Shown here: positions 20,685 to 43,820 of the stretch, in pieces
Layout: each line of letters begins with the position of its first letter
How positions within the stretch are numbered: position 1 is the stretch's first letter
Source of the DNA: Sporomusa malonica
GTDB lineage: Bacteria; Bacillota; Negativicutes; Sporomusales; Sporomusaceae
Direction: 5' to 3'
DNA length: 64,000 nt
Assembly (NCBI RefSeq): GCF_900176355.1
Contig: NZ_FWXI01000001.1
Coordinates: forward strand, 248,001-312,000
The notes under the pieces: model-generated
Database searches by the model: none
The model's input: only the letters and a program-made list of their open reading frames with translations
Told to the model about the DNA's origin: nothing
Program-made: the position numbers and the translations under genes

Positions 20685-20765
20685 TTTTTATTTATGATAA
20701 GAAGATGTATCCTAAAATGATATGATCGCGAATGTATGTCTAGTAAATGTTGGGCGATAGAGAAT

Positions 20766-20781
20766 TGGCACTATTCTTGCA
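20766..20781 (+). promoter_or_regulatory. Sigma-54 (-24/-12) promoter
   Basis: TGGCAC, five bases, TTGCA matches the consensus. It is 49 bp before the pterin methyltransferase start and just after the activator gene. A loose copy of the enhancer motif (TATCCTAAAATGATATGA) lies at 20708-20725, inside normal enhancer range only at its near end. Confidence 0.88.
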
Positions 20782-20829
20782 ATTGCAATATTGTTGTTAA
20801 GGGTCAACATTTTAAAGGAGTGATTGGGA

Positions 20830-21624
20830 ATGTTTATTGTCGGAGAATTAATCAATGCAAGTCGTAAACCTATTAGGGCTGCAATTGAAGCACAAGATGC
20901 GGCAGTAATTCAAAAAGTAGCTGTAGATCAATTTGAAGCGGGTGCCAATTATATCGATGTCAATGCCGGGATTTTTGTACATAAAGAGGCCGATTATTTA
21001 AAGTGGCTTGTAGAAGTTGTACAAGAGGCTACAGGTGCTCCATGTTGTATCGATAGTCCAGATCCAAGGGCTATTGAAAAAGCGCTATCCGTGCATCGCG
21101 GAGTCGCCATGATTAACTCCATCTCTTTAGAGAAAGAACGCTACGAAGGCCTCTTACCGTTGATCGCCGGTACAGAACACAAGGTTGTTGCATTGTGCAT
21201 GAGTGATGAAGGTATGCCTGAAACATCGGATGCTAGGCTCGCCGTAGCAGATAAGCTTATCAATGGTTTAGTACAAAATAATATCTCCTTGGACAATATT
21301 TATGTCGATCCGCTCGTACAGCCAGTGTCCACGAAAGATGAATTCGGAATCGAATTTTTAGAAGCAGTTGAAAAAATCATGACGACCTATAAAGGGGTTC
21401 ACACGATGTGTGGTTTGTCGAACATCTCTTACGGTTTACCCGTCCGTAAGCTCTTGAATCAGTCGTTTGCCGTAATGGCGATTGATCGAGGTTTAGACGG
21501 CTTAATCATAAATCCTTTAGATAAACAGATGATGGCTAATATAATAGCCGCCGAGACCATAGCGGGACGCGATAGCTATTGCGCTAACTATTTAGGTGCG
21601 TACCGGGGAGGCAAATTTGAATAA
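20830..21624 (+). CDS. Methyl-THF:corrinoid methyltransferase (AcsE/MeTr-like)
   Basis: A 264-aa TIM-barrel protein of the pterin-binding (DHPS-like) family. Landmarks: GELINASRKPI at the N-terminus, EAGANYIDVNAG, CCIDSPD, INSISLE, VDPLVQP and GLSNISYGLP, all typical of AcsE and similar corrinoid/pterin methyltransferases. The ATG at 20830 is preferred to the TTG at 20824 because AAGGAG then lies at a better distance. It is the only gene directly behind its -24/-12 promoter before a strong terminator. In this setting it should pass methyl groups between THF and the corrinoid protein at 30.4 kb. Confidence 0.87.
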   Translation: MFIVGELINASRKPIRAAIEAQDAAVIQKVAVDQFEAGANYIDVNAGIFVHKEADYLKWLVEVVQEATGAPCCIDSPDPRAIEKALSVHRGVAMINSISLEKERYEGLLPLIAGTEHKVVALCMSDEGMPETSDARLAVADKLINGLVQNNISLDNIYVDPLVQPVSTKDEFGIEFLEAVEKIMTTYKGVHTMCGLSNISYGLPVRKLLNQSFAVMAIDRGLDGLIINPLDKQMMANIIAAETIAGRDSYCANYLGAYRGGKFE

Positions 21625-21636
21625 GAGGAGAATTAA

Positions 21637-21682
21637 AGAAAACGCTGTCGGACATATGCCGGGCGAAGGCGATTAAGAAAAG
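21637..21682 (+). pseudogene. Fossil of an mttB-like 3' end
   Basis: 46 bp nearly identical (one mismatch) to 34033-34078, which spans the last 13 codons, stop and downstream bases of the second MttB-like gene. Here it stands alone: the frame reads ENAVGHMPGEGD then stop, but no coding sequence precedes it. It shows that an mttB-like gene once followed the pterin methyltransferase, or that the 3' end was copied here. Confidence 0.85.
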
Positions 21683-21688
21683 ATTATA

Positions 21689-21711
21689 GGCTACCTGCTT
21701 AGCAGGTAGCC
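21689..21711 (+). terminator. Rho-independent-like terminator
   Basis: GGCTACCTGC (21689-21698), loop TTA, GCAGGTAGCC (21702-21711), then CGCTTTT. It closes the pterin methyltransferase unit. Confidence 0.8.
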
Positions 21712-21756
21712 GCTTTTACATCTCAAGGTCACAATCCTAAAGGAGGGAGATGCCTT

Positions 21757-22413
21757 ATGAATACGGTTGTTCTCAACAATTTCCCGTGTGAAATAGAGTT
21801 TGATGCTCTACTAAAAAAGTTACACATTAAGAAAGAAAGCAGCTATTTAGCCGAATTAGAGATGATGGCAGCTGAAGCGCAGTTGATAGCAAGACCCAAA
21901 ATAGTTTATAAAGAGGCAACTATTGAAGTAAAAGGAGATAACTTTGTTGTTGTCGATAAAATCAAGCTTACTAGTCGCCTGCTACGAAAGAACATGGAAG
22001 CGGCGCTAACCGCCTACCCGTTTGTTGTTACTTGCGGGACTGAGTTAGAAGCCTGGTCTAAACAATATGAAGATTTTTTTGCAAGTTTTTGTGCCGATAC
22101 GATTAAAGAAATGGTACTACGTACTGCTATAAAAATTTTTGAAGAACATCTAGATAAAGAGTTTGGCTTGGGTCATGCTGTCAATATGAATCCGGGCTCA
22201 TTGGCTGAGTGGCCAATCACTGGACAAATACACCTATTTAATCTATTAGGTAATGTAGAAGAGTTAATCGGGGTTCGACTTACAGATAGTTACCTTATGC
22301 TTCCGGTTAAGAGCGTCTCTGGAATCCGGTTTCTCAAAGAAGGAACGTTTGAAAGTTGCCAATTGTGTCCCCGAGAGAATTGTCCCAGTAGAAAAGCACC
22401 ATATGGTTCATAA
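21757..22413 (+). CDS. MetH activation-domain-like protein with C-terminal Cys motif
   Basis: A 218-aa protein related to the reactivation domain of B12-dependent methionine synthase, which binds AdoMet for reductive methylation of inactive cob(II)alamin. The diagnostic part is at about 145-195: PGSLAEWPITGQ, IGVRLTDSYLMLP and KSVSGIRF. The C-terminus carries C201, C204 and C209 (CQLCPRENC), which could hold a metal or Fe-S centre. No catalytic MetH domains are present. RBS AAGGAGGGAG precedes the ATG. Position among corrinoid methyltransferase genes suggests a role in keeping corrinoid proteins active; this role is inferred. Confidence 0.75.
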   Translation: MNTVVLNNFPCEIEFDALLKKLHIKKESSYLAELEMMAAEAQLIARPKIVYKEATIEVKGDNFVVVDKIKLTSRLLRKNMEAALTAYPFVVTCGTELEAWSKQYEDFFASFCADTIKEMVLRTAIKIFEEHLDKEFGLGHAVNMNPGSLAEWPITGQIHLFNLLGNVEELIGVRLTDSYLMLPVKSVSGIRFLKEGTFESCQLCPRENCPSRKAPYGS

Positions 22414-22436
22414 GGGCCACGATAGTATGCGTTTTA

Positions 22437-22625
22437 ATAAATATCTTAAAATGAGATATTTATCCCCAGTTAAAAAAGTCAAATATTCCCTTTGATTTCA
22501 AGCTAAACGTGAGGTTAGATGATCATAAAAAATATTAGCTCATCAAATTAGTCTCAAAATAAGATATCAAATTAATCACTAATTTCATCATTAGATTGAA
22601 AATATTCGTCCGAAAATGAGATATG
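22437..22625. promoter_or_regulatory. Three copies of a shared enhancer-like motif
   Basis: Site 1 is a dyad with 10-bp perfect arms ATAAATATCT (22437-22446) and AGATATTTAT (22454-22463) around TAAAATG. Site 2 (22550-22567) reads AGTCTCAAAATAAGATAT and site 3 (22607-22625) CGTCCGAAAATGAGATATG. All share AAAATrAGATAT. They lie 60-250 bp before a -24/-12 promoter, as expected for enhancer sites of the activator at 18.8 kb. Confidence 0.6.
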
Positions 22626-22683
22626 AAACTTTAAGATTTGGACCATAAGGCTCAAATACTGGCTTCGATACACCATTTGGACT

Positions 22684-22699
22684 TGGCATAGTAATTGCA
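22684..22699 (+). promoter_or_regulatory. Sigma-54 (-24/-12) promoter of the betaine reductase operon
   Basis: TGGCAT, five bases, TTGCA. One base off consensus at -24 with correct spacing. It lies about 70 bp before trxB, the first gene of the grd operon. Confidence 0.82.
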
Positions 22700-22769
22700 T
22701 AATCTAAGTTAAAGAGTAAAAACGATTGAAAAATCAAAGTATTAAAAATATTTTAAAGGAGAAGCAGGA

Positions 22770-23738
22770 ATGTCTAATCTGTATGATATTCTTATTGTTG
22801 GTGGCGGCCCGGGTGGGCTGGCTGCAGCGATTTATGGATCTCGATCGCGTTTGAAAACTGGAATTTTAGAAAAAGGCAGGTTAGGTGGTCAAGCAGCCAC
22901 TACCGAAGAACTAGAGAACTATCCAGGATTCTCCCGAGGTCAGACGGGACCAGCGTTAATGGAAAGTATAGCTGAGCACGCTATTAGCTTCGGGACAGAA
23001 ATTATTCGCGAAGAAGTCATTGGGCTGGAATTGGAAGGAGCTATAAAACGAGTCAAAACCAAAAGCGGTCATGAATACCTAGCGAAGACCATTATTCTTG
23101 CCACCGGGGCTGAACCAAAATCCTTAAACATTAAGGGAGAACATTCTCATAGAGGGAAGGGCGTATCTTATTGCGCCACCTGTGATGCCGATTTCTTCGA
23201 AGAACTGGATGTAATTGTAGTCGGCAATGGGGATGCCGCCATTGAAGAAGCAATGTATTTGACCAAATTTGCTGAGACGGTGACTGTCATTGTGAGACGC
23301 GCAGAAGGGGACTTAAGATGTAATAAGAGAAGTGCGAAAAGAGCTTTCGGCAATCCGAAGATTAAATGGGCTTGGAATTCTGTTTTGGAGGAAATAAGCG
23401 GAGATGGTCTGGTGGATAGTGTTGTCGTTAAAAACCTAAAAACCGGGGAGCTCTCTGTGATGGAAACCAATGGTGTGTTTTTCTTTGTTGGAACTGTTCC
23501 GAAGACCACTATGTTACAGGGCAAAGTCAGGCTCAACCAAGAAGGATATATTATAACGAATGATCTGATGGAGACATCTGTGCTCGGAGTATATGCGGTG
23601 GGAGATGTTCGGGAAAAATTCCTCAGACAGGTGGTTACAGCGGTTAGTGACGGAGCTATCGCAGCTGTTGCAGCTGAGAAATACCTCGCTGAAAAGGAAG
23701 GCGTGGAAAGAAGCCCTGAACAGCAAAAAATATCTTAA
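22770..23738 (+). CDS. trxB: Thioredoxin reductase of the betaine reductase operon
   Basis: A 322-aa FAD/NAD(P)H flavoprotein. FAD-binding GGGPGGLAAA (11-20), redox-active C135-A-T-C138, NAD(P)-binding VVGNGDAAIEEA, and the C-terminal GVYAVGDVR are all present. It reduces the following thioredoxin, which in turn regenerates selenoprotein A after each reductive cleavage. In amino-acid reducing clostridia trxB-trxA also precede grd genes. First gene of the operon behind a sigma-54 promoter; RBS AAAGGAG. Confidence 0.93.
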   Translation: MSNLYDILIVGGGPGGLAAAIYGSRSRLKTGILEKGRLGGQAATTEELENYPGFSRGQTGPALMESIAEHAISFGTEIIREEVIGLELEGAIKRVKTKSGHEYLAKTIILATGAEPKSLNIKGEHSHRGKGVSYCATCDADFFEELDVIVVGNGDAAIEEAMYLTKFAETVTVIVRRAEGDLRCNKRSAKRAFGNPKIKWAWNSVLEEISGDGLVDSVVVKNLKTGELSVMETNGVFFFVGTVPKTTMLQGKVRLNQEGYIITNDLMETSVLGVYAVGDVREKFLRQVVTAVSDGAIAAVAAEKYLAEKEGVERSPEQQKIS

Positions 23739-23751
23739 AGGAGGGGATAAA

Positions 23752-24066
23752 ATGTTGATACTTACAAAAGAGAATTTTGCAACAGAGGTTCTGAATGCAG
23801 AGGGACTGATACTGGTCGATTTTTGGAGCGAAAAATGTGAACCTTGTAAAGCTTTGATGCCCAGAATTCATGAATTGGCGGAAAAGCACCATGGAAAGGC
23901 AAAATTTTGCTCCTTAGATACTAATGGTAACAAGCGCTTGGCGATGGCTCAAAAGGTTTTAGGTTTGCCTACGATACTCTTCTATCGAAATGGAGAAAGA
24001 ATTGCTGAGTTAACCACGCAAATTTCCGTTGAAGATGTAGAAGCCAAACTGCTTGAACTGGTGTAG
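23752..24066 (+). CDS. trxA: Thioredoxin (CEPC active site)
   Basis: A 104-aa thioredoxin starting at ATG 23752 after AAAGGAGGGG; longer in-frame ORF into trxB is not real. The active site is C29-E-P-C32 in place of the usual CGPC, and the preceding Trp-Cys pair is altered (WSEKCEPCK). Grd-linked thioredoxins of other anaerobes also deviate here. The cis-Pro loop LGLPTILFY is present. It delivers electrons from TrxB to GrdA. 13 bp separate it from trxB. Confidence 0.92.
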   Translation: MLILTKENFATEVLNAEGLILVDFWSEKCEPCKALMPRIHELAEKHHGKAKFCSLDTNGNKRLAMAQKVLGLPTILFYRNGERIAELTTQISVEDVEAKLLELV

Positions 24067-24111
24067 GCCAACTTCTAAAATAGCAAAACTATGGAAAGGG
24101 GAAATGTGTAA

Positions 24112-24555
24112 ATGCTGAAAGGTAAAAAGGTAGCTATTCTTGGTGACCGTGATGGTATTCCGGGCCCAGCTATTGAAGAATGCCTGAAATCAGGTGGCGC
24201 AGAAGTAATATTCGTTACCACAGAATGCTTCGTTTGAACTGCGGCTGGAGCAATGGACCTGGAAAATCAAGCGCGTATTATGGGGTTTGCGGAAAAGTAC
24301 GGTAAAGAAGATTTGATCGTGGTTTTAGGAGGCGGGGAAGCAGAAGCTTCCGGTCTGGCTGCGGAAACCGTATCTACCGGAGATCCCACGTTTGCAGGTC
24401 CATTAGCCGGAGTCCAGTTGGGACTCAAAGCTTACCACATTTTTGAATTGAAGGATATGGTTGATCCCGCTGTCTATGATGAGCAGATCAGCATGATGGA
24501 AATGGTACTTGATGTCGACACAATTGTTGAGGAAGTAAAGACCTATCGTAAATAG
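24112..24555 (+). CDS. grdA: Glycine/sarcosine/betaine reductase selenoprotein A (in-frame UGA)
   Basis: 147 aa with an in-frame TGA at 24235-24237 read as selenocysteine 42. The context [17 protein letters not shown] is the invariant GrdA active site (CxxU with C39). Without readthrough the gene would appear as a short N-terminal fragment plus a 100-aa ORF from 24253. GrdA is the shared carrier: it accepts the carboxymethyl group from the substrate-specific protein B as a selenoether and is reduced again by thioredoxin. RBS AAAGGGG. It is followed by grdC. Confidence 0.96.
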
Positions 24556-24583
24556 CTTGCGAGTGGCACATAGAGGTGATTTG

Positions 24584-26122
24584 ATGAATTTTCCTGTTAT
24601 TAAAGGTGCTGCCTATGGGCTGGTTCATGCTACTGACATGCTTGTCCATCATGGTACTACTCAAACCATGGAACGGGCTAAAGATGCTAAGTCAGGACAT
24701 CTTGAAAAGCTTCCGGGGCATCTAAGAAGTTTTGAACAAGTGGCTGATTATCCTCCGAACCAGGTATACATCGGGAATATGACCCCTGATGAATTAAGGG
24801 AGGTTCCACGTCCCTGGTATAAGCAAGCAGGCTTTGGAAAGAGTCATGACGGAAAATTCGGTGCGATTATCCCAGAAGATGAATTTATAGGCTTAATGAA
24901 AATGGCTGATGCCTTTGAATTGGTAATTCTGGAAGAGCAGTTTCAATTAAGAGTCAAAGACAAAATTGTTGCTCATCCGATTCTGGGAGCTATCAAAGAT
25001 ATTAACAAGCTTGATAAAAATCCTGGTACTTCGGAAGAAATCCGGAAATTAGTTGAAGAGCACATTGCGCAGCCGATGTACTCTGCCGGCAAGCTGGTCG
25101 GGTGTGTGAAAAGAGCGCATGAGTTTGATGAAGCGTTATCAGACCATGTAATGTATGAGAATCTTGTGTCTAAGGCGTCTGCTGCTTTTGCCCTGCAATT
25201 ACTTTTGAGCAAAACCAAATTAAAGGCGGAAGAAATTGAATATATCATCGAGTGTTCTGAAGAAGCTTGCGGAGACATGAATCAAAGGGGCGGGGGGAAT
25301 TTCGCCAAATCTATTGGTGAGATGTGTGGCTGTGTTAATGCAACAGGCTCTGATACCCGTAGTTTCTGTGCAGCGCCCGCACATGCATTGGTAGAAGCGG
25401 CTGCGCTTGCCCAGTCTGGAATTTATAAGAACATTGTGGTATTGGCCGGTGGCTCTTCAGCAAAATTAGGCATGAATTCAAAGAATCATGTTGAAAAGGG
25501 AATGCCGGCTTTTGAAGATGTGTTAGGCTCCTTTGCAATTCATATCGGGGAAAACGATGGGGTAAGCCCGATGATCCGTACTGATGGTGTTGGTAGACAT
25601 AAGATTGGTTCGGGTTCGTCGCCACAGGCTGTAATGACTGCTATTGTAGCTGACCCCTTAGACAAAATTGGCTATAAGATACTGGATGTGGATCGTTACG
25701 CAGCAGAAATGCAAAACCCAGAGATCACCGAGCCTGCCGGAGCGGGTGATGTCCCCCTGGCTAATTATAAGATGATTAGTGCTTTAGGGGTCAAAAGAGG
25801 GGATTTAGAAAAAAAGGATCTGCAGAAAGCTGTTGACAGTTTTGGCATGCCTGGATTTGCTCCCACTCAGGGACACATTCCCTCTGGGGTTCCTTTCATC
25901 GGACACGCACTGGAAATGATCCTGTCAGGGAAAATTCTGCGGGCCATGATTATTGGCAAGGGAAGCCTTTTCCTAGGCAGGATGACCAATCTTTTTGATG
26001 GTGTCTCCTTTATTATTGAGAAGAACAGCGGATTTGCTGAGTCAGGCTTCGATAAGCAAGAAGTACGGGGAATGATTGCTGAAGCAATGCGAGATTTCGC
26101 CAAGACTCTTGGCGGAGAATAA
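24584..26122 (+). CDS. grdC: Reductase complex component C, beta subunit
   Basis: About 512 aa from ATG 24584 (AGAGGTGA upstream); a TTG at 24557 gives a 9-residue extension without a ribosome site. GrdC belongs to the thiolase/FabH-like fold family and with GrdD turns the carboxymethyl-selenoether of GrdA into acetyl phosphate using phosphate. The N-terminus (VIKGAAYGLVHATDMLVHHG) and the CGDMNQRGGGN stretch with nearby SFCAAPAHALVEAA are typical. 28 bp after grdA. Confidence 0.92.
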   Translation: MNFPVIKGAAYGLVHATDMLVHHGTTQTMERAKDAKSGHLEKLPGHLRSFEQVADYPPNQVYIGNMTPDELREVPRPWYKQAGFGKSHDGKFGAIIPEDEFIGLMKMADAFELVILEEQFQLRVKDKIVAHPILGAIKDINKLDKNPGTSEEIRKLVEEHIAQPMYSAGKLVGCVKRAHEFDEALSDHVMYENLVSKASAAFALQLLLSKTKLKAEEIEYIIECSEEACGDMNQRGGGNFAKSIGEMCGCVNATGSDTRSFCAAPAHALVEAAALAQSGIYKNIVVLAGGSSAKLGMNSKNHVEKGMPAFEDVLGSFAIHIGENDGVSPMIRTDGVGRHKIGSGSSPQAVMTAIVADPLDKIGYKILDVDRYAAEMQNPEITEPAGAGDVPLANYKMISALGVKRGDLEKKDLQKAVDSFGMPGFAPTQGHIPSGVPFIGHALEMILSGKILRAMIIGKGSLFLGRMTNLFDGVSFIIEKNSGFAESGFDKQEVRGMIAEAMRDFAKTLGGE

Positions 26123-26157
26123 TTTTAAACATAGTTGCTTCAATGGTAGGTGAAATA

Positions 26158-27324
26158 ATGGGTAAAAACCTTATTAAAACAGCAATCGCGGAGATCTTTG
26201 GGGAAATGGCTCAAGCTTTAGAGACAGGTAGTATCGCTAAAAGTTGCAGGGTTGGTCTAACAGTCTTGGGCAGTGATCACGGACCTGAGGAACTTGTGCG
26301 AGGAGCGGAATTGGCCCAGAAGCAAGATCCAAATATTCAAGTAGTTATTATCGGCAGCGGAGTAGAAACCCAATTGGAAACTGTGGCTGCCTTGGATGAA
26401 AGAGAAGCTCATGCTGCCATGGATGAGATGTTGTTGAACCATAGCCTGGATGCAGCCGTTACTATGCATTACAATTTTCCGATTGGGGTATCCACTGTGG
26501 GGAAAGTTATTACCCCGGGCAAGGGGCAAGAGCTGTTTTTGGCGACAACAACAGGGACGTCGGCAACGGAGCGAATTACCGCTATGCTCAGAAATACTAT
26601 TTATGGGATTGCGGTTGCCAAGGCTTGCGAAAATCCCAAACCAACAGTAGGCGTCTTGAATATTGAGGGCGCCAGGCAAGTGGAAAGAGCCCTGAAAAAG
26701 CTCAAGGCGGGTGGCTACCAAATCGATTTTGCAGAGTCCGCCAGGAGCGACGGCGGTATAGTTATGAGGGGCAACGACCTGTTACTGGGTGTTCCAGATG
26801 TTATGGTAAATGATAGTCTAACCGGAAACGTCTTAATGAAGGTATTTTCCGCATACAGCACCGGAGGTACTTATGAAGCGGTGGGAAGCGGATATGGACC
26901 CGGTGTGGGAGAAGATTACGACAGGATTATCTGCATTGTTTCCAGAGCGTCTGGTGCCCCCGTGATTGCCGGAGCCATCCGGTTTGCCGCAAATTGCGCT
27001 AAAGGGAATTTGCGGCAAAAGGCTAAAGCAGAGTTCGCCGCAGCCAAGAAAGCCGGTTGGGAGACTATCGTTAAATCATTGAGTGCTAATGCCTTGCCGA
27101 GCAAACAAGACGATGAAAAAGTGGCAGTATCTCCCTCGAAAAAAGCGGTTACTGATTCCATTCCCGGGGTAGAAGTCATGCAGTTGGAAGACGCAGTTCA
27201 GGTGTTATGGAAAGCCGGCATTTATGCGGAATGCGGCATGGGCTGTACCGGACCCATCGTGATGATTGCTCCGGAAGACAGGGAGAGGGCATTAGAATTA
27301 CTGAAAGCTAAGGAATACCTGTAA
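26158..27324 (+). CDS. grdD: Reductase complex component C, alpha subunit
   Basis: 388 aa from ATG 26158 (GTAGGTGA upstream); the ATG at 26143 is too close to grdC for a good site. PlsX-like fold. Conserved stretches: GSDHGPEELVRGAELAQ, GVSTVGKVITPGKGQE, and the C-terminal AECGMGCTGPIVM, where a Cys is thought to carry the acetyl group before phosphorolysis. Works with GrdC to release acetyl phosphate, giving ATP by acetate kinase. Confidence 0.92.
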   Translation: MGKNLIKTAIAEIFGEMAQALETGSIAKSCRVGLTVLGSDHGPEELVRGAELAQKQDPNIQVVIIGSGVETQLETVAALDEREAHAAMDEMLLNHSLDAAVTMHYNFPIGVSTVGKVITPGKGQELFLATTTGTSATERITAMLRNTIYGIAVAKACENPKPTVGVLNIEGARQVERALKKLKAGGYQIDFAESARSDGGIVMRGNDLLLGVPDVMVNDSLTGNVLMKVFSAYSTGGTYEAVGSGYGPGVGEDYDRIICIVSRASGAPVIAGAIRFAANCAKGNLRQKAKAEFAAAKKAGWETIVKSLSANALPSKQDDEKVAVSPSKKAVTDSIPGVEVMQLEDAVQVLWKAGIYAECGMGCTGPIVMIAPEDRERALELLKAKEYL

Positions 27325-27692
27325 TGAAATACCTAATCGTCACTAATAATCCGGCGGTTGCAGAAAAAAACGATAACATGTTATTTGTGGAAGGTTCTGC
27401 AGAAGAGACTTTGATTAAGGTACGAGATCTAGTCCATGAAGGATATGAACTAATCAGCCACCCTCTAGCTGCTAGTTTAAGGATGATGTTTTCACCGTTT
27501 CGCTCCGTAATCTTAGGGAAAAAGTCGACAAAAGTAGATTCCTTCTCTGCTGAGATTATCGAGGATAGCATCATTAAATATAAGAGGCATATGGACTTTC
27601 GTAAAAGAGACACAGCGAATGCTGAGGATTACAAAATGATAGACCTGATACTGTTAGAAGCGGCTTTAGCTGAGCAACCTGTTACTTGGTGA
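27324..27692 (+). CDS. grdX: GrdX family protein
   Basis: A 122-aa protein of the GrdX family, nearly always found in glycine/sarcosine/betaine reductase operons but of unknown function. It begins in a TAATG overlap with the grdD stop, so translation is coupled. Landmarks: LIVTNNPAVAEK at the start and a DLVHEGYELISHPLAAS segment. No catalytic residues or membrane segments stand out. Confidence 0.88.
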   Translation: MKYLIVTNNPAVAEKNDNMLFVEGSAEETLIKVRDLVHEGYELISHPLAASLRMMFSPFRSVILGKKSTKVDSFSAEIIEDSIIKYKRHMDFRKRDTANAEDYKMIDLILLEAALAEQPVTW

Positions 27693-27722
27693 TTTTTGAA
27701 AAATAATAGGGAGGTGAACGTT

Positions 27723-29009
27723 GTGAAACTGGAAATTGGCCGGATTTATATTAAAGACATTCAGTTAAGCAATGAGACTTCTGTAAAAGACGGAGTCTTA
27801 ACCGTTGATAAGGAGGGATTAATTGCTTACCTGAAAGAAGACGTAAGAATTAAAGATGTCTTAATTGACGTAGCTAAGCCAGGCGAAAAAGTAAGAATTA
27901 TTCCGGTGAAAGACGTAATTGAGCCTAGGGTGAAAATTCAAGGCGGCAATAATGGTTTTCCCGGGGTTACGTCTAAACAGGCTCAGTGTGGAGAAGGCAG
28001 AACCCATGTTTTATATGGTGCCGCAGTTGTAACAGTTGGTGATATTGTGGGCTTTCAAGAAGGTGTCATTGATATGTGGGGTGAAGGGGCTAAGTGGACT
28101 CCGTTCTCCCAAACCTATAATTTAACGGTGGATATCCGGGTGATAGAAGGGCTGCAGCCCCATACCCATGAAGAAACTGTTAGGATAGCTGGACTGCGGG
28201 CAGCCGAGTTTATCGGGTTAGCAGGGAAAAATTTAACCCCAGACGAGGTACGTACCTTTGAAATTGGCAGTATTTTTGAAGAAGCAGCCAAATACCCTGA
28301 TTTACCTAAAGTTGTCTACGCCGAGATGAATATTACCCAGGGGTTACTGCATGATACCTATATTTACGGCGTCAATCAATCGTCAATTTTGCCAACACTA
28401 CTTCATGCCAACGAGGAATTAGATGGTGCAGTAATTAGTGGGAACTGCGTTGCGGCATGCGATAAGATTACTACTTACCAGCACCAAAACAATACCGTGA
28501 TCTATGACCTGTATGCCCAGCACGGTAAGGAAATCAACTTCTTGGGGGTCATTATGGTCCCTGAACACACTACTTTAGCTGGTAAGCTCCGCGCATCTGA
28601 TTATACTGTAAAACTGGCAAAAATGCTGGGGGCCGATGCGGTGATTGTATCCGAAGAGGGCTATGGGAACCCTGACTCTGACCTGTTAATGATTTGTAAA
28701 AAATGCGAAAAAGCTGGTATTAAAACCGTATTAATTACCGATGAATGTGCGGGAAGAGACGGCATGTCTCAGCCTTTGGCTGACACAGCGGCAGAAGCAG
28801 TGGCAGTAGTTTCCGGGGGAAATGTTAGTCACGTGGTTACGCTGCTTCCGGCAGACAGGGTTATCGGCAATGCGGCAGCTATTGCGGTATTGGCTGGTGG
28901 TTGGGAAGGTTCTTTATTGGAAGACGGTAGCTTGATGTGTGAGTTAAATGCTGTGATTGGTGCCACATCAGAAATTGGATTCCACAATGTGACCTGCAGA
29001 CTGTACTAA
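27723..29009 (+). CDS. grdI: Betaine reductase component B, proprotein subunit
   Basis: 428 aa from GTG 27723, eight bases after GGGAGGTGA. Proproteins of this family (GrdE/GrdG/GrdI) self-cleave at an internal Cys to form a pyruvoyl group that binds the substrate amine; the conserved site is seen as N241-C242 in SGNCVAACDK. It is assigned to betaine (GrdI) rather than glycine or sarcosine from the surrounding betaine genes; sequence alone cannot settle the substrate. Pairs with the selenoprotein subunit immediately downstream. Confidence 0.85.
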   Translation: MKLEIGRIYIKDIQLSNETSVKDGVLTVDKEGLIAYLKEDVRIKDVLIDVAKPGEKVRIIPVKDVIEPRVKIQGGNNGFPGVTSKQAQCGEGRTHVLYGAAVVTVGDIVGFQEGVIDMWGEGAKWTPFSQTYNLTVDIRVIEGLQPHTHEETVRIAGLRAAEFIGLAGKNLTPDEVRTFEIGSIFEEAAKYPDLPKVVYAEMNITQGLLHDTYIYGVNQSSILPTLLHANEELDGAVISGNCVAACDKITTYQHQNNTVIYDLYAQHGKEINFLGVIMVPEHTTLAGKLRASDYTVKLAKMLGADAVIVSEEGYGNPDSDLLMICKKCEKAGIKTVLITDECAGRDGMSQPLADTAAEAVAVVSGGNVSHVVTLLPADRVIGNAAAIAVLAGGWEGSLLEDGSLMCELNAVIGATSEIGFHNVTCRLY

Positions 29010-29033
29010 ACTTATATGAAAGGTGGATATCTT

Positions 29034-30344
29034 ATGGCAGATAAGTTTAAAGTTCTCTACTATGTAAACCAATTTTTTGGCCAAATAGGTGGAGAGGATA
29101 AAGCAGGTATGCCCCCAGAGTTTAGTCCGAATAAGATTGGCCCGGCAATGGGTTTTGAAGGATTGCTTAAGGGGGAAGGATCGGTTGTCGGCACCATTAT
29201 CTGTGGTGATAACTACTTCAATGAGAACAAAGATGAAGCCATAGAGACTATTTTGAATATGGTAAAAGAAGCTGCTCCGGATGTGTTTGTCGCTGGGCCT
29301 GCTTTTAATGCCGGGCGGTATGGAGTAGCCTGTTCAGAGATTTCCAAGACTGTTGCTGAACACTTGAAGATCCCGGTAGTCACTGGTATGTATGTGGAAA
29401 ACCCCGGCTTGGATAACTGCAAAGCGATCGCCTATGTAGTCAGTACGAGCGATAACGCTGGCGGAATGCGTAAAGCATTGCCCTTAATGGCGTCACTGGC
29501 CTGTAAGTTGGCCAAAGGGATTGAAATTGGGTCTCCTGAAGACGAAGGGTACATTGCTCGCGGTATGAGAAAGACGCTCATTGTGGAAAAAAGAGGTTCA
29601 CAAAGGGCTGTGGAAATGTTACTTGCCCGCTTAAAAGGTCAGCCTTTTGCAACAGAAATGCCGATGCCTGTATTTGATGTAGTGGCACCTGCTGAATCAA
29701 TTAAGGAGTTAAGTAAGGCTACCATTGCCTTGTGCACCTCTGGCGGTATTGTACCAGCAGGAAATCCGGACAAAATTCAGTCGGCCAGTGCGCAAAAATG
29801 GGGTAAATACGATGTTACTGCAATTAATGCGCTTGAGGCTCCTTGCTATTATACAACACATGGTGGCTATGATCCGATCTATGCCAATGAGGATCCTGAC
29901 CGTGTCGCACCATTAGATATTTTAAAAGAATTCGAAGATGAGGGCTATATTGGAAAGGTTTATGACTGGTTTTATACAACCACCGGAACCGGAACTGCCG
30001 TAAGCAAATCAGTAGAATTTGGTGTGCAAATAGGAGCTGAATTGAAGGCTGCTGGAGTGGATGGTGTTATCTTAACATCCACCTGAGGGACCTGTACTCG
30101 TTGCGGTGCAACGATTGTAAAAGAAATCGAAAGATATGGTATTCCTATTGTCCACATGGCTACTATTACGACGATTAGTGAGTCAGTCGGTGCTAATCGA
30201 ATTGTCCCGACTATTGCTATTCCTTATCCGGTGGGAAATCCGAAGCTTAGTAAGGGCGATGAACATACTTTGAGAAAAGCAATAGTTAAAAAGGCATTGG
30301 ATGCGTTAACTACCGAAATTACCGAACCAACTCAATTTGAGTAA
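29034..30344 (+). CDS. grdH: Betaine reductase component B, selenoprotein subunit (in-frame UGA)
   Basis: 436 aa read through TGA at 30084-30086 as Sec351, in the motif LTST-U-GTCTRCGA (UxxCxxC) of GrdB/GrdF/GrdH proteins. A start at ATG 29034 is supported by AAAGGTGG. Without recoding it would look like a 356-aa ORF plus a 62-aa ORF. Sec attacks the Schiff-base-bound substrate, releasing trimethylamine (from betaine) and passing the carboxymethyl group to GrdA. Betaine specificity is inferred from context. Confidence 0.92.
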
Positions 30345-30442
30345 GAAAATTCTTATGTAGAGAGGATCGGCTATATTATGTCTGATCCTCAAAGAAAAGA
30401 TACATCAAAAGCTAGATTTGAATTTGAAAGGGGATAAAAAGA

Positions 30443-31075
30443 ATGGCAAACTTTGAAGAACTGTCAAAAAGCGTAATCAGCGGTAATCTCGCCAAAGTTA
30501 AAAAGATAACACAGACACTGATAGATGAAGGAGTCTCGCCTCTAGATATCATCAATCAGGGGTTAATCGGGGGAATGAGTGTAGTGGGTGCCCGTTTTAA
30601 GAACGGGGAGATGTTTGTACCGGAAGTTCTAGTTGCTGCCAGATCCATGACTGCGGGAATTGAGTTGGTAAAGCCTTTGATATCAGCTGAGAACATGCCT
30701 TCAGCAGGCAAAGTTATGTTGGGTACGGTTAAGGGAGACCTTCACGATATCGGGAAGAACCTAGTGGGAATGATGCTCGAAAGTAGAGGCTACAGCATTA
30801 TTAACGTAGGAATGGATGTTTCCCCGGAAAAATTTGTGCAATTACTAAAAGAGCACAAACCAGATGTATTGGGGATGTGCGCCTTACTTACCACAACAAT
30901 GCTGCATATGAAAGATACTATCGAACTCATGAAAGAAGAGGGCATCAGAGATCAAGTTAAAGTAATTGTAGGAGGGGCGCCACTGTCCCAGGATTTTGCG
31001 GATGAATGCGGTGCAGACGGATATGCGCAGGATGCGGGTTCGGCGGTAGATCTCTGTAATCGGCTCTTGGCGTAA
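30443..31075 (+). CDS. Corrinoid protein of second methyltransferase set
   Basis: A 210-aa B12-binding protein of the MttC/MtbC type. Cap domain 1-85; cobalt-ligand motif D99-L-H101-D-I-G104; distal GGAPLS loop near 180. Related to but clearly distinct from MtgC at 6.9 kb, so the two sets should not be interchangeable. RBS AAAGGGG. A small dyad GAGGATC/GATCCTC (30362-30390) lies between it and grdH; no T tract, so transcription may continue from the grd operon. It precedes two MttB-like genes that should methylate it. Confidence 0.9.
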   Translation: MANFEELSKSVISGNLAKVKKITQTLIDEGVSPLDIINQGLIGGMSVVGARFKNGEMFVPEVLVAARSMTAGIELVKPLISAENMPSAGKVMLGTVKGDLHDIGKNLVGMMLESRGYSIINVGMDVSPEKFVQLLKEHKPDVLGMCALLTTTMLHMKDTIELMKEEGIRDQVKVIVGGAPLSQDFADECGADGYAQDAGSAVDLCNRLLA

Positions 31076-31106
31076 ACTTAGAGGGTTTGAAAGGAGAGAG
31101 AAGTAA

Positions 31107-32573
31107 GTGAGTACAACAAAAAGTCGTTATACGCGGGCAAATTATGCGGTCAATCAGACCACCGTTTGGGAAATGCTTAGTGAGGATCAATGTGAAGAAC
31201 TTTTCATGACAGCGCTTGAGGTTCTAGAACGTACCGGGGCAGAAATCCTGAACGAAGAAGCTCGTAAAATCTTCGAAAAAGCAGGCTGCTGGGTCGATGG
31301 CAATCGAGTTAGAATCCCTTCCGCGTTATCAGAGTGGGCGGTAAGAAGTGCGCCTTCACGCGTCACCGTATGTGACCGAAATGGCAAAAGGGCTTTAAAA
31401 TTAGAAACTACAAACGCTTATTATGGACCAGGTCACGGTAATACCTATGTGATTGACCCCCTGACAGCTGCACGGAAAAAACCGGTTAAGACGGATGTCG
31501 CTAAAACCGGCGTTGTTTGTGACGGATTAAAGAACGTTGATTTCGTTATGAGCAACGGTCTTCCCACAGATGTCCCAAAAAGCACAGCAGAAGTTCATGC
31601 TTTTGAAGCCTTGGTAACCAATACGACCAAGCCAATTATCCAGTCAATCCAGGGAGTAGAACAAGCACAAGCAATTCTTGACATCGCCACTGCCGTGGCC
31701 GGAAGTTTAAGGGAATTCCAAAAGAATCCTTTTGCAGTTTTTCTGATTGAAACAGAAGGAACGCTGGTACATTCCGAGGCGACGTTGGCCAAGGTCCTAT
31801 TTGCTGCCCGAAACGGAGTTCCCTATATTTATGCGACCAAGCTCATTGCCGGTGAAACATCGCCTGCTACTCCGGCCGGGGCCATTGTCGTAGCTTTGGC
31901 AGATGATTTAGTCGGGATATTGCTGGGACAATTAGTTCGCCAAGGAGCCCCTGTGATTGCCGGCGGTTTCTTCACAATTAAAAATCAAGAGACCGGTATC
32001 TTGCCTTACGGCGCTCCGGAAGTCAGCCTGATGGGAACAGGAATGGCAAATGTTATGCGTTTCCTTAGGATTCCGAGTTTCGGCTTTGCCGGTGCTACAG
32101 ACGCTAAAGAAAGCGATGCACAAATGGGCTTAGAAGCAGCATTTTCCATTCTGCATGCCGGTATGAGCGGAACAAGTCTGATTCATGGCTGCGGTCAATT
32201 GGAATATGGCCTGACAGGATCTTTGGAATTACTGGTCATGGGCGATGAAGTCATGGGTATGACGCGCAGAATGATGAAAGGCGTCGAGGTAAATGAAGAA
32301 CGATTAGCCCGAGGCGTAATTGATGAAGTACAGCCAGCAGGACATTACCTGGGTGAAGATCATACTTTAAAATTTTTCCGCTCGGAATTCTGGTGGCCGA
32401 CAGTTATGAATAGAACAAGGATTGCTGAATGGGAGGCCAATGGGGCGAAAAGTTTAGGCCAACGAGTTAAAGAAAAGACCCAAAGTATAATCAAGACCCA
32501 CCAAGCAGAGAAACTTTCTGAAGAGGTCCTGAGCAAAATCCAGACAGTCTTAGACAGAGTGGATGCCAGATAG
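31107..32573 (+). CDS. MttB-like methyltransferase, non-pyrrolysine (first of tandem pair)
   Basis: A 488-aa COG5598 protein starting at GTG 31107 (AAAGGAGAG upstream). No UAG interrupts the frame. It shares the N-terminal pattern VLERTGAEI ... EKAGCWVDGNRVRIPS with the next gene (AGCWVDGKRVRIPA), so the pair arose by duplication, but both differ from MtgB at 5.4 kb. Expected reaction: methyl transfer from a quaternary or tertiary amine to the corrinoid protein just upstream. The substrate is unknown; trimethylamine from betaine reductase, dimethylglycine or another betaine are candidates. Confidence 0.85.
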   Translation: MSTTKSRYTRANYAVNQTTVWEMLSEDQCEELFMTALEVLERTGAEILNEEARKIFEKAGCWVDGNRVRIPSALSEWAVRSAPSRVTVCDRNGKRALKLETTNAYYGPGHGNTYVIDPLTAARKKPVKTDVAKTGVVCDGLKNVDFVMSNGLPTDVPKSTAEVHAFEALVTNTTKPIIQSIQGVEQAQAILDIATAVAGSLREFQKNPFAVFLIETEGTLVHSEATLAKVLFAARNGVPYIYATKLIAGETSPATPAGAIVVALADDLVGILLGQLVRQGAPVIAGGFFTIKNQETGILPYGAPEVSLMGTGMANVMRFLRIPSFGFAGATDAKESDAQMGLEAAFSILHAGMSGTSLIHGCGQLEYGLTGSLELLVMGDEVMGMTRRMMKGVEVNEERLARGVIDEVQPAGHYLGEDHTLKFFRSEFWWPTVMNRTRIAEWEANGAKSLGQRVKEKTQSIIKTHQAEKLSEEVLSKIQTVLDRVDAR

Positions 32574-32605
32574 AATTAAATGAGGGTTGAAAGGAGAGTT
32601 TGAAG

Positions 32606-34072
32606 TTGACAACTAGAACAAACTTTAAAGCGTATTCAAGTACCAAGATGAATATATTGTCGGAAGCTCAATGTCATGAATTGGTCATGGCTGCAGTAGA
32701 AGCAATGTGGCGCACCGGAACAGATTTCCATGACAAAGAGTCGCTGGAAATTCTAAGAAAAGCAGGCTGCTGGGTCGACGGGAAAAGAGTTCGGATACCG
32801 GCAAACATTACAGAACGGTGCTTGAGAAGCTGTCAGAAACACGTTGTGCTTTGCAATAGCCGGACTGGAGCCCGAGAACTGTTTATCGAAGGAAATAATG
32901 CTTATTTTGGTTCGGGCCCCTGCACCCCGTTTACCCGAAACCCCTTCACGAACGAAAGACATCGTGCTACCAGACAGTCTGTAGGCTGGGCAACCAAGGT
33001 TCTTGATGCCTTGCCAAATATTGATTATGCGATGTCGCTGGGTATTGTTCAAGATGTGCCTCTGTTAGTATCGGACCGCCATGAGTTTGAGCAACAGATT
33101 TTACACACCGATAAACCGATTATTACGGTTTGTGTTGATGAATGGGGCCAAGCGGACGTCATTAAGATGGCTGAGATCGTCGCCGGTGGTGAGGAAGAAC
33201 TAAGACGGAACCCATTTATCTGCCTGTATGCTGAACCGATTTCGCCAGGTGTGCACTGCAAGGAAGCTGCGCAAAAGTTAGTCCTGGGGGCTAAGAAGGG
33301 CTTACCGACCATTTATACCCCTTGTATTATGGCTGGAGGAACGGCACCTGCAACTATGGCAGGGGTAATGGTTCAAGGTTTATGCGAAAGCTTGAGCGGT
33401 ATGGTTCTGAGTCAGTGTACCCGTGAAGGAGCCCCCTTTATTATGGGTGGAGTGTACACTGTACTGGATATGGGTACGACCATCTTCTCCTATGGAGCAC
33501 CGGAGCTTCACCTGCTCCTAGCCAGCTTAGCTGATGTGGCTCATTATCTGAATATTCCGATGTTTGGTACGGCAGGCTGTACAGATTCTTGTATTATTGA
33601 TGAACAGGCAGGAATAGAGGCAGCCCTGTCCATCGCTATGACAAATATGTCAGGAGCCAACCTAAATCATGATACAGGTTACTCAGAATACGGGACGACT
33701 TCAAACCTCGACCTTGTTGTAATTGCCGATGAAGTATTGGGTATGGCCAGAAGATTAACCAGTGGTATACGTGTTGATCAGGAAACGTTAGCGCTCGATG
33801 TCATTGAAAAGGTTGGTCCGGGCGGCAATTTTGCCGATGAAGATCATACCGAAGAGCATGTAGAGGAGAACTATACCCCGAGATTGGTCAATCGCGCCGC
33901 TCGCAGTATTTGGGAAAGTACAGGCGGGAAAACACTGACCCAGGTAGCCAATGAAAAAGTTCGAGACATTATTAATTACCACGAGCCCATTCCTCTGCCG
34001 AAGGATATTTCCGCAAAGATCAGGGATATTGTAGAAAACGCTGTCGGACATATGCCGGGCGAAGACGATTAA
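32606..34072 (+). CDS. MttB-like methyltransferase, non-pyrrolysine (second of tandem pair)
   Basis: About 488 aa from TTG 32606, seven bases after AAGGAGAG; the TTG at 32600 is too close to that site. COG5598 family, uninterrupted by UAG. Paralogue of the preceding gene with 32 bp between them. Its last 13 codons and stop recur as a fossil at 21637-21682. Two adjacent paralogues with one corrinoid protein could form a hetero-oligomer, or accept two different methylated amines. Confidence 0.85.
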   Translation: MTTRTNFKAYSSTKMNILSEAQCHELVMAAVEAMWRTGTDFHDKESLEILRKAGCWVDGKRVRIPANITERCLRSCQKHVVLCNSRTGARELFIEGNNAYFGSGPCTPFTRNPFTNERHRATRQSVGWATKVLDALPNIDYAMSLGIVQDVPLLVSDRHEFEQQILHTDKPIITVCVDEWGQADVIKMAEIVAGGEEELRRNPFICLYAEPISPGVHCKEAAQKLVLGAKKGLPTIYTPCIMAGGTAPATMAGVMVQGLCESLSGMVLSQCTREGAPFIMGGVYTVLDMGTTIFSYGAPELHLLLASLADVAHYLNIPMFGTAGCTDSCIIDEQAGIEAALSIAMTNMSGANLNHDTGYSEYGTTSNLDLVVIADEVLGMARRLTSGIRVDQETLALDVIEKVGPGGNFADEDHTEEHVEENYTPRLVNRAARSIWESTGGKTLTQVANEKVRDIINYHEPIPLPKDISAKIRDIVENAVGHMPGEDD

Positions 34073-34117
34073 GAAAAGTTTAGCTGCCTGCTTTTGCTTT
34101 CGTAAGGAGGAATAGAA

Positions 34118-36142
34118 ATGTCACTGGTATTGGGAATCGATACTGGCGGAACTTATACCGATGGTGTGGTCGTGGAGCTTAGGAGCAAACAGATATTGAA
34201 GAAGGCCAAAGCATTGACTACCCGTGAGGATCTATCCATTGGCATTCGAAACTGTATTACTAATTTGGATTTTGAAGATTTTAAGAACATCAGTGCGGTT
34301 TCGCTATCAACCACATTAGCAACTAATGCAATTGTAGAAGGTCGCGGGTGTAAGGTGGGCCTTTTGATGATTGGCTATAATTCCACTGATTCACTCCCTG
34401 CAGAACATAACTATGTTCTGCAGGGAGGGCACAATCTCAAAGGCCGTCCCAATGCAGAACTAGATCTGGAAAAGACCCGCCAAGCTATTTGCGAGCTAAA
34501 AGGTAAAGTAGATGCCATAGCTATTTCGGGATATCTTAGCATAAGGAATCCTGAACACGAAGTTGCTGTAATGGGTATGGTGAATGAAATTTTGGATCTT
34601 CCGGTGGTATGTGCTCACCAGCTAACGACTTCCTTAGGATTCCATGAAAGGACAGTTACAGCAGTTCTCAATGCTCGCTTAATTCCAATCATTACCGAAT
34701 TAATTGAATCTGTAAAAAAGGTGCTTGGCGAAAAAGGGATAGAGGCACCCATTATGGTCGTTAAAGGCGACGGGTGTATGATGGGCGAGGCTTTAGCGCG
34801 TGAAAAGCCTATCGAGACTATTTTATCGGGACCGGCTTCCAGTATCATAGGAGGAACTTTTCTTACTAAAACTTCTGATGCTCTTGTGCTTGACATGGGT
34901 GGAACCACAACTGATATTGCCATTCTAAAAAATGGAGTGCCTAAGATCAATCAAGAGGGGGCAACAGTAGGTGGTTGGCTTACGCGTGTTCAAGCTGCAC
35001 AGATCTATACCTATGGCCTAGGCGGAGATAGCTATGTCCAAATTAGCAAAGATGGTGAAATTCAGGTAGGTCCCCAACGGGTATGGCCCTTGTCTGTGGT
35101 TGCGTACCAACATCCTTATTTGGTCGATGAATTGAAGATGAAATTTGATAAGACCTATGATCTTATGTTTGCCCAAGCAACAGATTGTTTCATGTTCCTT
35201 AAGCAAGCAACATTTGAAGAATTGAATGACCAAGAAAAAGAAGTTGTTGAAATTCTTCAACATGGACCAAGAAGTTTATATTATCTAACCCAAAGGATGA
35301 ATCTGGATCCTAACCTGCTAAATTTACAACATCTCGTTAATTTGGGAGTATTAGCCAGAATATCACTTACTCCCACTGATCTCTTGCATGCCAAAGGGAC
35401 CTATCATCAATGGAACCGAGAAGCAGCGGAAATAGGCGTAGAAGTCTTAGCAAGCCGAATGAGAGTAAGCTCGGAAGAGTTTATTCGACTGGCTTCAGAA
35501 AAAATAATCAATGACCTTTGCATTACCTGTCTTCAGAGTCTTGTAGGCTGTGATGCGCAAAACATTAAGATAAAAAATACACCAGATGTCATGTATTTCA
35601 TAGAAAAAGCCTTATCACCCAAACAAGATCAAGGATTTGACTGTTCTTTTAAAATCAATATGCCAATTGTTGGCATAGGCGCTCCGGTTAGGGCTTGGTT
35701 GCCAGCTGTAGCAGAGAAGATGAATACCTCTTTGATTATTCCGGAGCATGCTGAAGTAGCCAACGCTGTTGGGGCCGCAACTGGTAAGATCATGGAAACT
35801 ATCAAAGTATTGATTAAGCCTGGCGAAAAAGATGGAACCTATCTGATGCATGCCCCTTGGGAATGTAAGATGTTTGAAAGTCTGGAAACTGCAGTGTCCT
35901 ATTCACTGGACAAAGCAAAGCAACAGGCAAGGCTGGCGGCAAGTAAAGCAGGGGCAAAAGAGTTTGAGTTAGTTGTAAGCCATCAGGATAGATATGCGCA
36001 AGCCTCAATGATAGAAAAAGATCTTTATATTGAATCACTTATCGAAATAACCGCCGTAGAACGTCCGGAGTGGGAAAGAGAAGAAATAAAAGAAAAATTC
36101 TTTGTGGATTGTGCAGAGCCCGTTTTGAGTAATGCTGGTTGA
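34118..36142 (+). CDS. Hydantoinase/oxoprolinase (HyuA)-type ATPase in a corrinoid operon
   Basis: A 674-aa ASKHA-fold protein. Phosphate 1 motif GIDTGGTYTDGVV, phosphate 2 LDMGGTTTDIAIL and the N-terminal hydantoinase segment STTLATNAIVEG are clear. It resembles HyuA/OplA but has no HyuB partner and sits last in a methyltransferase operon (RBS AAGGAGG). Residues 468-478 contain CITCLQSLVGC (C468, C471, C478). Ring-opening of a hydantoin or oxoproline has no obvious use here. An ATP-driven corrinoid activation role, parallel to RACo/RamA (which also use an ASKHA domain with a metal centre), is an inference. Confidence 0.75.
   Translation: MSLVLGIDTGGTYTDGVVVELRSKQILKKAKALTTREDLSIGIRNCITNLDFEDFKNISAVSLSTTLATNAIVEGRGCKVGLLMIGYNSTDSLPAEHNYVLQGGHNLKGRPNAELDLEKTRQAICELKGKVDAIAISGYLSIRNPEHEVAVMGMVNEILDLPVVCAHQLTTSLGFHERTVTAVLNARLIPIITELIESVKKVLGEKGIEAPIMVVKGDGCMMGEALAREKPIETILSGPASSIIGGTFLTKTSDALVLDMGGTTTDIAILKNGVPKINQEGATVGGWLTRVQAAQIYTYGLGGDSYVQISKDGEIQVGPQRVWPLSVVAYQHPYLVDELKMKFDKTYDLMFAQATDCFMFLKQATFEELNDQEKEVVEILQHGPRSLYYLTQRMNLDPNLLNLQHLVNLGVLARISLTPTDLLHAKGTYHQWNREAAEIGVEVLASRMRVSSEEFIRLASEKIINDLCITCLQSLVGCDAQNIKIKNTPDVMYFIEKALSPKQDQGFDCSFKINMPIVGIGAPVRAWLPAVAEKMNTSLIIPEHAEVANAVGAATGKIMETIKVLIKPGEKDGTYLMHAPWECKMFESLETAVSYSLDKAKQQARLAASKAGAKEFELVVSHQDRYAQASMIEKDLYIESLIEITAVERPEWEREEIKEKFFVDCAEPVLSNAG
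34394..34427. repeat. 34-bp near-perfect palindrome inside a coding region
   Basis: Arms CTCCCTGCAGAACATA (34394-34409) and its exact complement (34412-34427) are separated by only two bases. It lies within the HyuA-like gene and encodes the unremarkable stretch SLPAEHNYVLQGG. Confidence 0.85.
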
Positions 36143-36560: not shown

Positions 36561-36832
36561 TAGAAAAAATATTTACAATTTATAGATTTTATATTTTTAT
36601 TTGGTGTTATGATTATACAAAAAAAAATATTATTTTACAATGCTAAATTTTACTCGTTGTAAATCTCTAAAAGCACGATACTAACTGCTGATCGAATACG
36701 CGGGCTTACCATGGACTTAGCTTTGGTGGGTGCGTGGGCAAATACCCTTTTATATACTCCCATTTTTTTAATAAGGGAATTTGTTATAGGTACTGTCTAA
36801 GAAATTCCTAGAATTGAAAGGAGATTTTCTTG

Positions 36833-39230: not shown

Positions 39231-39404
39231 TTTACTGCATAGCAGTTTAGTACAAACCTCGATGTGTGTTACATAAGTTTCTTGAGATAGTATTTTTTTG
39301 ACAAAATACTTTAACATCTTGCGAACACTGCATAGACTAGAAGGAAAATACTTTTGTTTGTAGAATGTGCTACAACATAAGAAAAAAATTAATAACTCCA
39401 CCAT

Positions 39405-39590
39405 ACAGGTGCCTCTCGCTATAGAGGGGAGAATAGGGAAGCTCGGAAGGATTCAAAAAAGAATCCTTAAACGACGCGGTCGCGCCACTGTAATCGGGGA
39501 GGAACATCTCTATTATGCCACCGGCTATCCGGGAAGGCGAGGGTGTTCCGAGGAACCGTAAGCCAGGAGACCTGCCTGTTATGGCTGTTA
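39405..39590 (+). promoter_or_regulatory. Cobalamin riboswitch
   Basis: Conserved elements occur in order: GGTGCC near the 5' end (39408), GGGAA (39435 region), GCCACTGTAATCGGGGAGG (39483-39502), a paired ATGCCACCGG...CCGGGAAGGCG arm, and the B12 box AGCCAGGAGACCTGCC (39561-39576). It stands 118 bp before cobT with a terminator hairpin between, so AdoCbl or another cobamide should cause premature termination. Confidence 0.93.
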
Positions 39591-39642
39591 TTTACCTCCG
39601 CGCCAGGGGTAGTACCAGAAGGACAGGATTTTATGAAAATAG

Positions 39643-39673
39643 AACCCTAGCCCTTTTGGGCTAGGGGTTTTTA
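39643..39673 (+). terminator. Riboswitch-controlled terminator
   Basis: CCCTAGCCC (39645-39653), loop TTTT, GGGCTAGGG (39658-39666), then GTTTTTATTT. It lies between the B12 box and cobT, as expected for a transcriptional off-switch. Confidence 0.88.
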
Positions 39674-39708
39674 TTTGGGCGCAAAATTTTAAAATAGGGG
39701 GAGTAGAA

Positions 39709-40743: not shown

Positions 40744-40835
40744 CGTTATTTTTGCTGGTAAGCAGGAATTGACGGTCATTGTAGCAAAATTATCCCCTTT
40801 AAACATGTTCTAAGTTGAAGCAGGGGGAAGTTTTT

Positions 40836-42050: not shown

Positions 42051-42077
42051 TTGCAGAACATAAAAGGAGAGGTATGT

Positions 42078-43745: not shown

Positions 43746-43790
43746 AATACGATTGACCTGCCTGGTGTTGCCAGGGGTTAAGATGACCAT

Positions 43791-43820
43791 AAAAAAGACT
43801 GTGAAAAACAGTCTTTTTTT
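43791..43820 (+). terminator. Terminator between regulator pair and pdu operon
   Basis: AAAAAAGACTGT (43791-43802), loop, ACAGTCTTTTTTT (43808-43820). The 210 bp from here to pduU must hold the pdu promoter; I see no -24/-12 element or clear AraC direct repeats. Confidence 0.9.

Follow-up and report, generated by a model that had tools for sequence, protein, structure and literature searches.

We analysed a 64,000-nucleotide stretch of the Sporomusa malonica genome (contig NZ_FWXI01000001.1, positions 248,001 to 312,000; hereafter the window), which carries selenoprotein reductase genes followed at short distance by a corrinoid protein and two MttB-superfamily methyltransferases that lack pyrrolysine (non-Pyl). 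The genes run in the order trxB, trxA, grdA, grdC, grdD, grdX, B-component alpha, B-component beta, corrinoid protein, MttB1, MttB2 and HyuA from 22770 to 36142, all on the plus strand and with short gaps, as the original prediction from the DNA alone had read them; the pterin methyltransferase and MetH-activation-like gene that it placed upstream are likewise present. Identities in the following list are to proteins of strain DCMF (Candidatus Formimonas warabiya), which degrades betaine.

18796-20607, plus strand: PrdR-like sigma-54 activator adjoining the cluster (Sigma54_activat, 244 bits; PrdR, 420 bits, below the cut-off of 795)
20765-20781, plus strand: sigma-54 promoter TTGGCACTATTCTTGCA, exact consensus, upstream of the pterin methyltransferase gene and kept in four sister species
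20830-21624, plus strand: pterin-binding methyltransferase of 264 aa, MTII candidate (NCBIfam MeTr-type domain, 349 bits, cut-off 259; 51%)
21757-22413, plus strand: MetH-activation-domain-like protein (Pfam Met_synt_B12 over 37 residues, 28.0 bits against a gathering threshold of 25)
22448-22624, plus strand: three AAAATRAGATAT repeats, likely upstream activator sites, preceding the promoter at 22683
22683-22699, plus strand: sigma-54 promoter TTGGCATAGTAATTGCA, exact consensus, upstream of trxB; the same promoter precedes grdX in four sister species
22770-23738, plus strand: trxB (NCBIfam TRX_reduct, 355 bits, cut-off 343)
23752-24066, plus strand: trxA (thioredoxin, 135 bits)
24112-24555, plus strand: grdA selenoprotein, TGA at 24235-24237 in a CFVU motif (NCBIfam reduct_selen_A, 157 bits, cut-off 130)
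24584-26122, plus strand: grdC (783 bits, cut-off 450)
26143-27324, plus strand: grdD (572 bits, cut-off 350)
27324-27692, plus strand: grdX (118 bits, cut-off 40)
27723-29009, plus strand: B-component alpha, sarcosine-type (87% to the betaine-induced GrdG)
29034-30344, plus strand: B-component beta selenoprotein, sarcosine-type, TGA at 30084-30086 in a UxxCxxC motif (83% to GrdF)
30087-30124, plus strand: SECIS element (Rfam RF01990, SECIS_4, 57.4 bits) directly after the B beta TGA
30443-31075, plus strand: MtgC/MttC-like corrinoid protein with B12-binding domains (77% and 80% to two corrinoid proteins)
31107-32573, plus strand: MttB1, non-Pyl MttB superfamily, alanine at the Pyl position (PF06253, 308 bits; 77% to the gene occupying the position of a 485-aa MTI)
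32606-34072, plus strand: MttB2, non-Pyl MttB superfamily, cysteine at the Pyl position (PF06253, 283 bits; 90% to the gene occupying the position of a 488-aa MTI)
34118-36142, plus strand: HyuA-like ASKHA ATPase, possible corrinoid-protein reactivator (Hydant_A_N, Hydantoinase_A; 76% to a 668-aa protein)
36830-38452, plus strand: BCCT transporter (betaine BCCT, 582 bits, below the cut-off of 650; 71% and 78% to two BCCT genes of the betaine-induced cluster)

The genes include everything expected of a glycine/sarcosine/betaine reductase complex, namely a selenoprotein A with CxxU, grdC with grdD, a B component with UxxCxxC, and trxBA, and both selenocysteine codons (in grdA and B beta) sit in the expected motifs. 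Exact YTGGCAY-N5-YTGCW sites occur four times in the window (0.22 expected from shuffles), and the two cluster promoters, at 20765 and 22683, recur at corresponding places in four sister species. The AAAATRAGATAT repeats, found three times against 0.03 expected, are retained in at least one copy in S. silvacetica, Sporomusa KB1 and the sister species G007; their activator function is likely, judging from the sequence. The proposed sigma-54 regulon therefore holds up: a PrdR-like activator adjoins −24/−12 promoters that exceed chance and are conserved in four relatives, and promoters, activator-like repeats and activator together support predicted co-regulation. In S. sphaeroides KIAC, RNA-seq showed that a 58 kb SigL cluster of transporters, mtgABC, mttBC and grd genes is specifically activated on betaine (PMC12456013).

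The two B-component genes had been named grdI and grdH, for a betaine reductase, and this naming is not supported. B beta passes none of the three NCBIfam substrate-specificity models: it scores 606 against sarcosine GrdF (cut-off 800), 592 against glycine GrdB (602) and 541 against betaine GrdH (775), and the alpha subunit likewise stays below the GrdG cut-off (537 against 780), leaving both halves of the curated GrdFG sarcosine assignment short of threshold. A Tissierella creatinophila member of the B-beta clade also misses the GrdF model (608), so the models may be drawn too tightly to rule sarcosine out, and we did not take the substrate models as proof in either direction. In a maximum-likelihood tree, B beta stands beside the betaine-induced DCMF GrdF with support of 100/99, within a clade that spans many amino-acid fermenters, and the GrdH proteins of Sporomusa and Enterococcus gilvus form a separate clade (100/100). 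The host genome encodes no second B component (one GRDB homologue). Three sister species do have a second, distinct one, about 22-28 kb away, and the two that were scored both pass the GrdH cut-off (802 and 803 against 775). A grd cluster near betaine genes is thus not automatically a betaine reductase, as Sporomusa can have two neighbouring B components of which only one is GrdH.

Substrate information comes from strain DCMF. At its locus L155, the products of trxBA-grdACDX and both B-component subunits share 76-87% identity with the window proteins, and its locus L153 encodes the corrinoid proteins, MttB1, MttB2, HyuA and two BCCT transporters at the identities listed above; the residues at the Pyl positions of MttB1 (alanine) and MttB2 (cysteine) are shared. 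We equated these loci with Ga0180325_114795-114803s and Ga0180325_114734-114742, respectively, by gene order, protein lengths and spacing rather than by locus tag, and on the same footing the pterin methyltransferase corresponds to the gene that occupies the position of a 265-aa MtgA in the betaine-induced cluster. The proteins of both gene sets are strongly more abundant in betaine-grown DCMF cells (PMC9768040, Table 2), and the authors of that study proposed the syntenic genes of Sporomusa ovata as new candidates for betaine demethylation (PMC9768040). From betaine, DCMF produces acetate and about one methylamine, trimethylamine being absent even when H2 is supplied; it also forms methylamine from dimethylglycine (plus acetate) and from sarcosine with H2 (PMC8163858). 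Given these products, the orthologous reductase is most likely a sarcosine reductase. Elsewhere in DCMF, at L102 (4783318-4804616), a further glycine-type B component is flanked by more mttB genes, a second grd/mttB adjacency.

A B component that reduces dimethylglycine to dimethylamine, or that accepts sarcosine, dimethylglycine and glycine broadly, with betaine or a different quaternary amine as the main substrate of the MttB pair, would fit the failure of every single-substrate model, the nearly equal GrdF and GrdB scores and the breadth of the clade. DCMF, however, makes methylamine and acetate from dimethylglycine, and dimethylamine was undetected on betaine or choline (PMC8163858). We consider this explanation unlikely.

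Several points weigh against a sarcosine assignment. The sole curated sarcosine GrdF available, from Peptoclostridium acidaminophilum, falls near glycine GrdB and outside the clade of B beta, which leaves the specificity of that clade without a purified-enzyme anchor. We inspected the P. acidaminophilum plasmid from 530 to 579 kb for further B components and found none there, and a search for solved B-component structures returned none. To our knowledge, there is no biochemistry on the window proteins or their DCMF orthologues. Syntrophaceticus schinkii, whose B subunits are only of the window type and the glycine type, can grow on betaine, and the authors of that work ascribed this growth to a betaine reductase without an enzyme test (PMC5113046). 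The KIAC authors label the corresponding genes trimethylamine methyltransferase and Grd, also without enzyme tests (PMC12456013), and the DCMF assignment is proteomic and physiological and comes from an enrichment culture (PMC9768040, PMC8163858).

The original prediction had overlooked a full MtgABC system for glycine betaine at 916-7531, which comes with a dedicated BCCT transporter and a divergent activator.

916-2478, minus strand: PrdR-like sigma-54 activator of the mtg cluster (NCBIfam PrdR, 374 bits, below the cut-off of 795; a related copy, 75% identical, lies beside mtgA in a sister species)
2789-4384, plus strand: BCCT transporter of the mtg cluster (NCBIfam carnitine/gamma-butyrobetaine antiporter type, 702 bits, cut-off 541)
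4415-5335, plus strand: MtgA, methyl-corrinoid:tetrahydrofolate methyltransferase (NCBIfam MtgA, 612 bits, cut-off 550)
5392-6819, plus strand: MtgB, non-Pyl glycine betaine:corrinoid methyltransferase, leucine at the Pyl position (full-length match to the solved enzyme 9yce)
6884-7531, plus strand: MtgC, glycine-betaine-specific corrinoid protein (NCBIfam MtgC, 412 bits, cut-off 310)

With this system in the same window, a separate cluster already accounts for the demethylation of betaine to dimethylglycine. A TAG recorded for mtgB in our match table was considered as a pyrrolysine codon and dismissed, as it sits upstream of the start.

MttB1 and MttB2 belong to the non-Pyl MttB superfamily by their PF06253 matches, and neither gene contains an in-frame amber codon. 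Against the model of the pyrrolysine-dependent trimethylamine methyltransferase MttB they reach 374 and 371 bits, below the equivalog cut-off of 525. In the literature consulted on this superfamily, Pyl enzymes act on trimethylamine and non-Pyl members on quaternary amines, with no more than trace secondary-amine activity reported for MtyB (PMC8604678). The host genome additionally carries an MttB gene whose amber codon, TAG, falls exactly on the Pyl position (C27:410963-412372, some 99 kb past the window), an amber-codon MtmB (C18:127793-129145) and two PylS genes (C18:132319; C65:1234), together a canonical pyrrolysine methylamine system. Two near-complete genomes, G205 and G165, encode MttB2 at 88% and 85% identity and no reductase B component at all, which indicates that the methyltransferase module is independent of the reductase product.

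These observations bear on the idea, put forward in the original prediction, that betaine reductase releases trimethylamine and that the non-Pyl MttB pair demethylates it or a second amine. The adjacency of the genes and their common promoter architecture speak for such a coupling, and the KIAC authors draw a route of betaine reduction and trimethylamine oxidation for their 58 kb cluster, citing earlier work on S. ovata (PMC12456013). Yet B beta lies outside the GrdH clade, and the canonical GrdHI pair, encoded separately in sister species, is missing here; the orthologous DCMF set yields methylamine and zero trimethylamine, and DCMF cannot use trimethylamine (PMC8163858). With PylS and an amber MttB in the genome, a pyrrolysine-free trimethylamine route is also unnecessary, and the MttB pair occurs where there is no reductase to feed it. 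We judge this model very unlikely; neither its betaine reductase nor its trimethylamine relay is supported.

The two modules might instead be mere neighbours, the MttB pair serving an unrelated quaternary amine and sharing just an activator with the reductase. Genomes with the pair and no Grd proteins would agree with this, as would G007, in which a second mttC-mttB1-mttB2 copy (L033, C5:392001-412000) has no adjoining reductase or hyuA; the mttB1 match of that copy is in two pieces, a possible frameshift. However, the DCMF orthologues of both modules, which lie about 70 kb apart, are co-induced by betaine, the modules are at most 20 kb apart in Sporomusa, Desulfosporosinus and Thermacetogenium, and the sister species G004 joins them to mtgABC in one contiguous run (mtgABC, pterin methyltransferase, grdX, B component, mttC, mttB1, mttB2 and hyuA). 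We regard such a neighbours-only arrangement as highly improbable.

Our preferred reading, which we hold to be probably correct, is that the window encodes a betaine-catabolic regulon of a Sporomusa acetogen that would take betaine through dimethylglycine and sarcosine to methylamine and acetyl phosphate. BCCT carriers would import glycine betaine, from which MtgB, working with MtgC and MtgA, would remove a methyl group to give dimethylglycine. The second module (corrinoid protein, MttB1, MttB2 and pterin methyltransferase), with HyuA as its likely corrinoid-protein reactivator, would remove methyl groups from dimethylglycine and/or betaine and leave sarcosine, which the selenoprotein reductase (TrxBA, GrdA, GrdCD and the B component at 27723-30344) would cleave to methylamine and acetyl phosphate. 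The methyl groups would enter the Wood-Ljungdahl pathway, where their oxidation would yield the electrons for reductive cleavage. The scheme builds on observed gene content, co-conservation, promoters, orthology to the betaine-induced DCMF proteins and the lack of canonical GrdHI; the B-component substrate we infer from DCMF physiology, and the substrate of each MttB and the role of HyuA are putative. For HyuA, residues 5-320 alone match the family, its AlphaFold model was too poor to use (pLDDT 57), and no HyuB partner was identified among the neighbours scanned. The broader claim that one regulon couples reductive cleavage with methyl harvest, with electrons that can be balanced internally, is supported, and has been published for KIAC (PMC12456013) and DCMF (PMC9768040).

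By position in this scheme, MttB1 and MttB2 are the obvious candidates for the gap that the literature consulted leaves between dimethylglycine and sarcosine. We tentatively propose, at somewhat less than even confidence, that one of them is a pyrrolysine-free methyltransferase converting the tertiary amine N,N-dimethylglycine to sarcosine. If so, this would be new chemistry for the family and would supply the missing middle step between MtgB and a sarcosine-type reductase. Should the whole scheme hold, it would explain how an acetogen ferments betaine with no release of trimethylamine, methylamine being the amine that is formed instead, and MttB1 and MttB2 would be the candidates for the dimethylglycine methyltransferase.

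Relatives also show how the unit has been eroded. In S. silvacetica and Sporomusa KB1, the interval from the MetH-activation gene to grdX keeps the sigma-54 promoter and has lost trxBA, grdA, grdC and most of grdD; the grdD remnants match both ends of the window gene (L043 7650-8320; L044 7500-8320), those of S. silvacetica aligning to window positions 26139-26176, 27094-27142 and 27208-27352. Since the full reductase unit is retained in Desulfosporosinus and DCMF, the window keeps the ancestral self-contained arrangement, from which the sister species lost parts. Components A and C were probably dispensable there because the nearby betaine reductase supplies them.

About 66 bases comprising the mttB2 3′ end and trailer are near-identical at 34027-34093 and 21631-21700, right after the pterin methyltransferase gene, a duplication that points to an old rearrangement or a lost mttB copy. 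Further downstream, 39390-57560 holds a cobalamin riboswitch, cobT, PocR-like regulators and a propanediol-type microcompartment cluster (pduB, diol dehydratase subunits, PduG reactivase, PduO-type adenosyltransferase, aldehyde dehydrogenase and an RnfC-like protein). An in-frame TGA in the diol dehydratase gene at 47.6 kb proved to be only its stop codon.

Compared with known systems, the cluster is largely ordinary, its main lines having already been described in KIAC and DCMF; what is new, though small, is that this genome retains an ancestral self-contained reductase unit partly deleted in sister species. The window reductase shares the three-component selenoprotein architecture of betaine reductase GrdHI, whereas its B beta is only about 47% identical to sister-species GrdH. 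Window MtgB is a close full-length relative of the structurally characterized MtgB (PDB 9yce, 2qne; 770 bits), whereas MttB1 and MttB2 are distant (216 and 190 bits), so that their substrate cannot be deduced from MtgB. By its published description, the S. sphaeroides KIAC cluster resembles the window in genus, sigma-54 control and betaine-induced transporters, mtgABC, mttBC and grd genes (PMC12456013), and differs in an extra grdACDHI annotated as betaine reductase, the only B component of the window genome being of the other type. Strain DCMF has the same gene set as the window in two separate modules instead of one contiguous cluster, and the two DCMF stretches that we read contain no consensus sigma-54 promoter, in contrast to the sigma-54 promoters of the window cluster.

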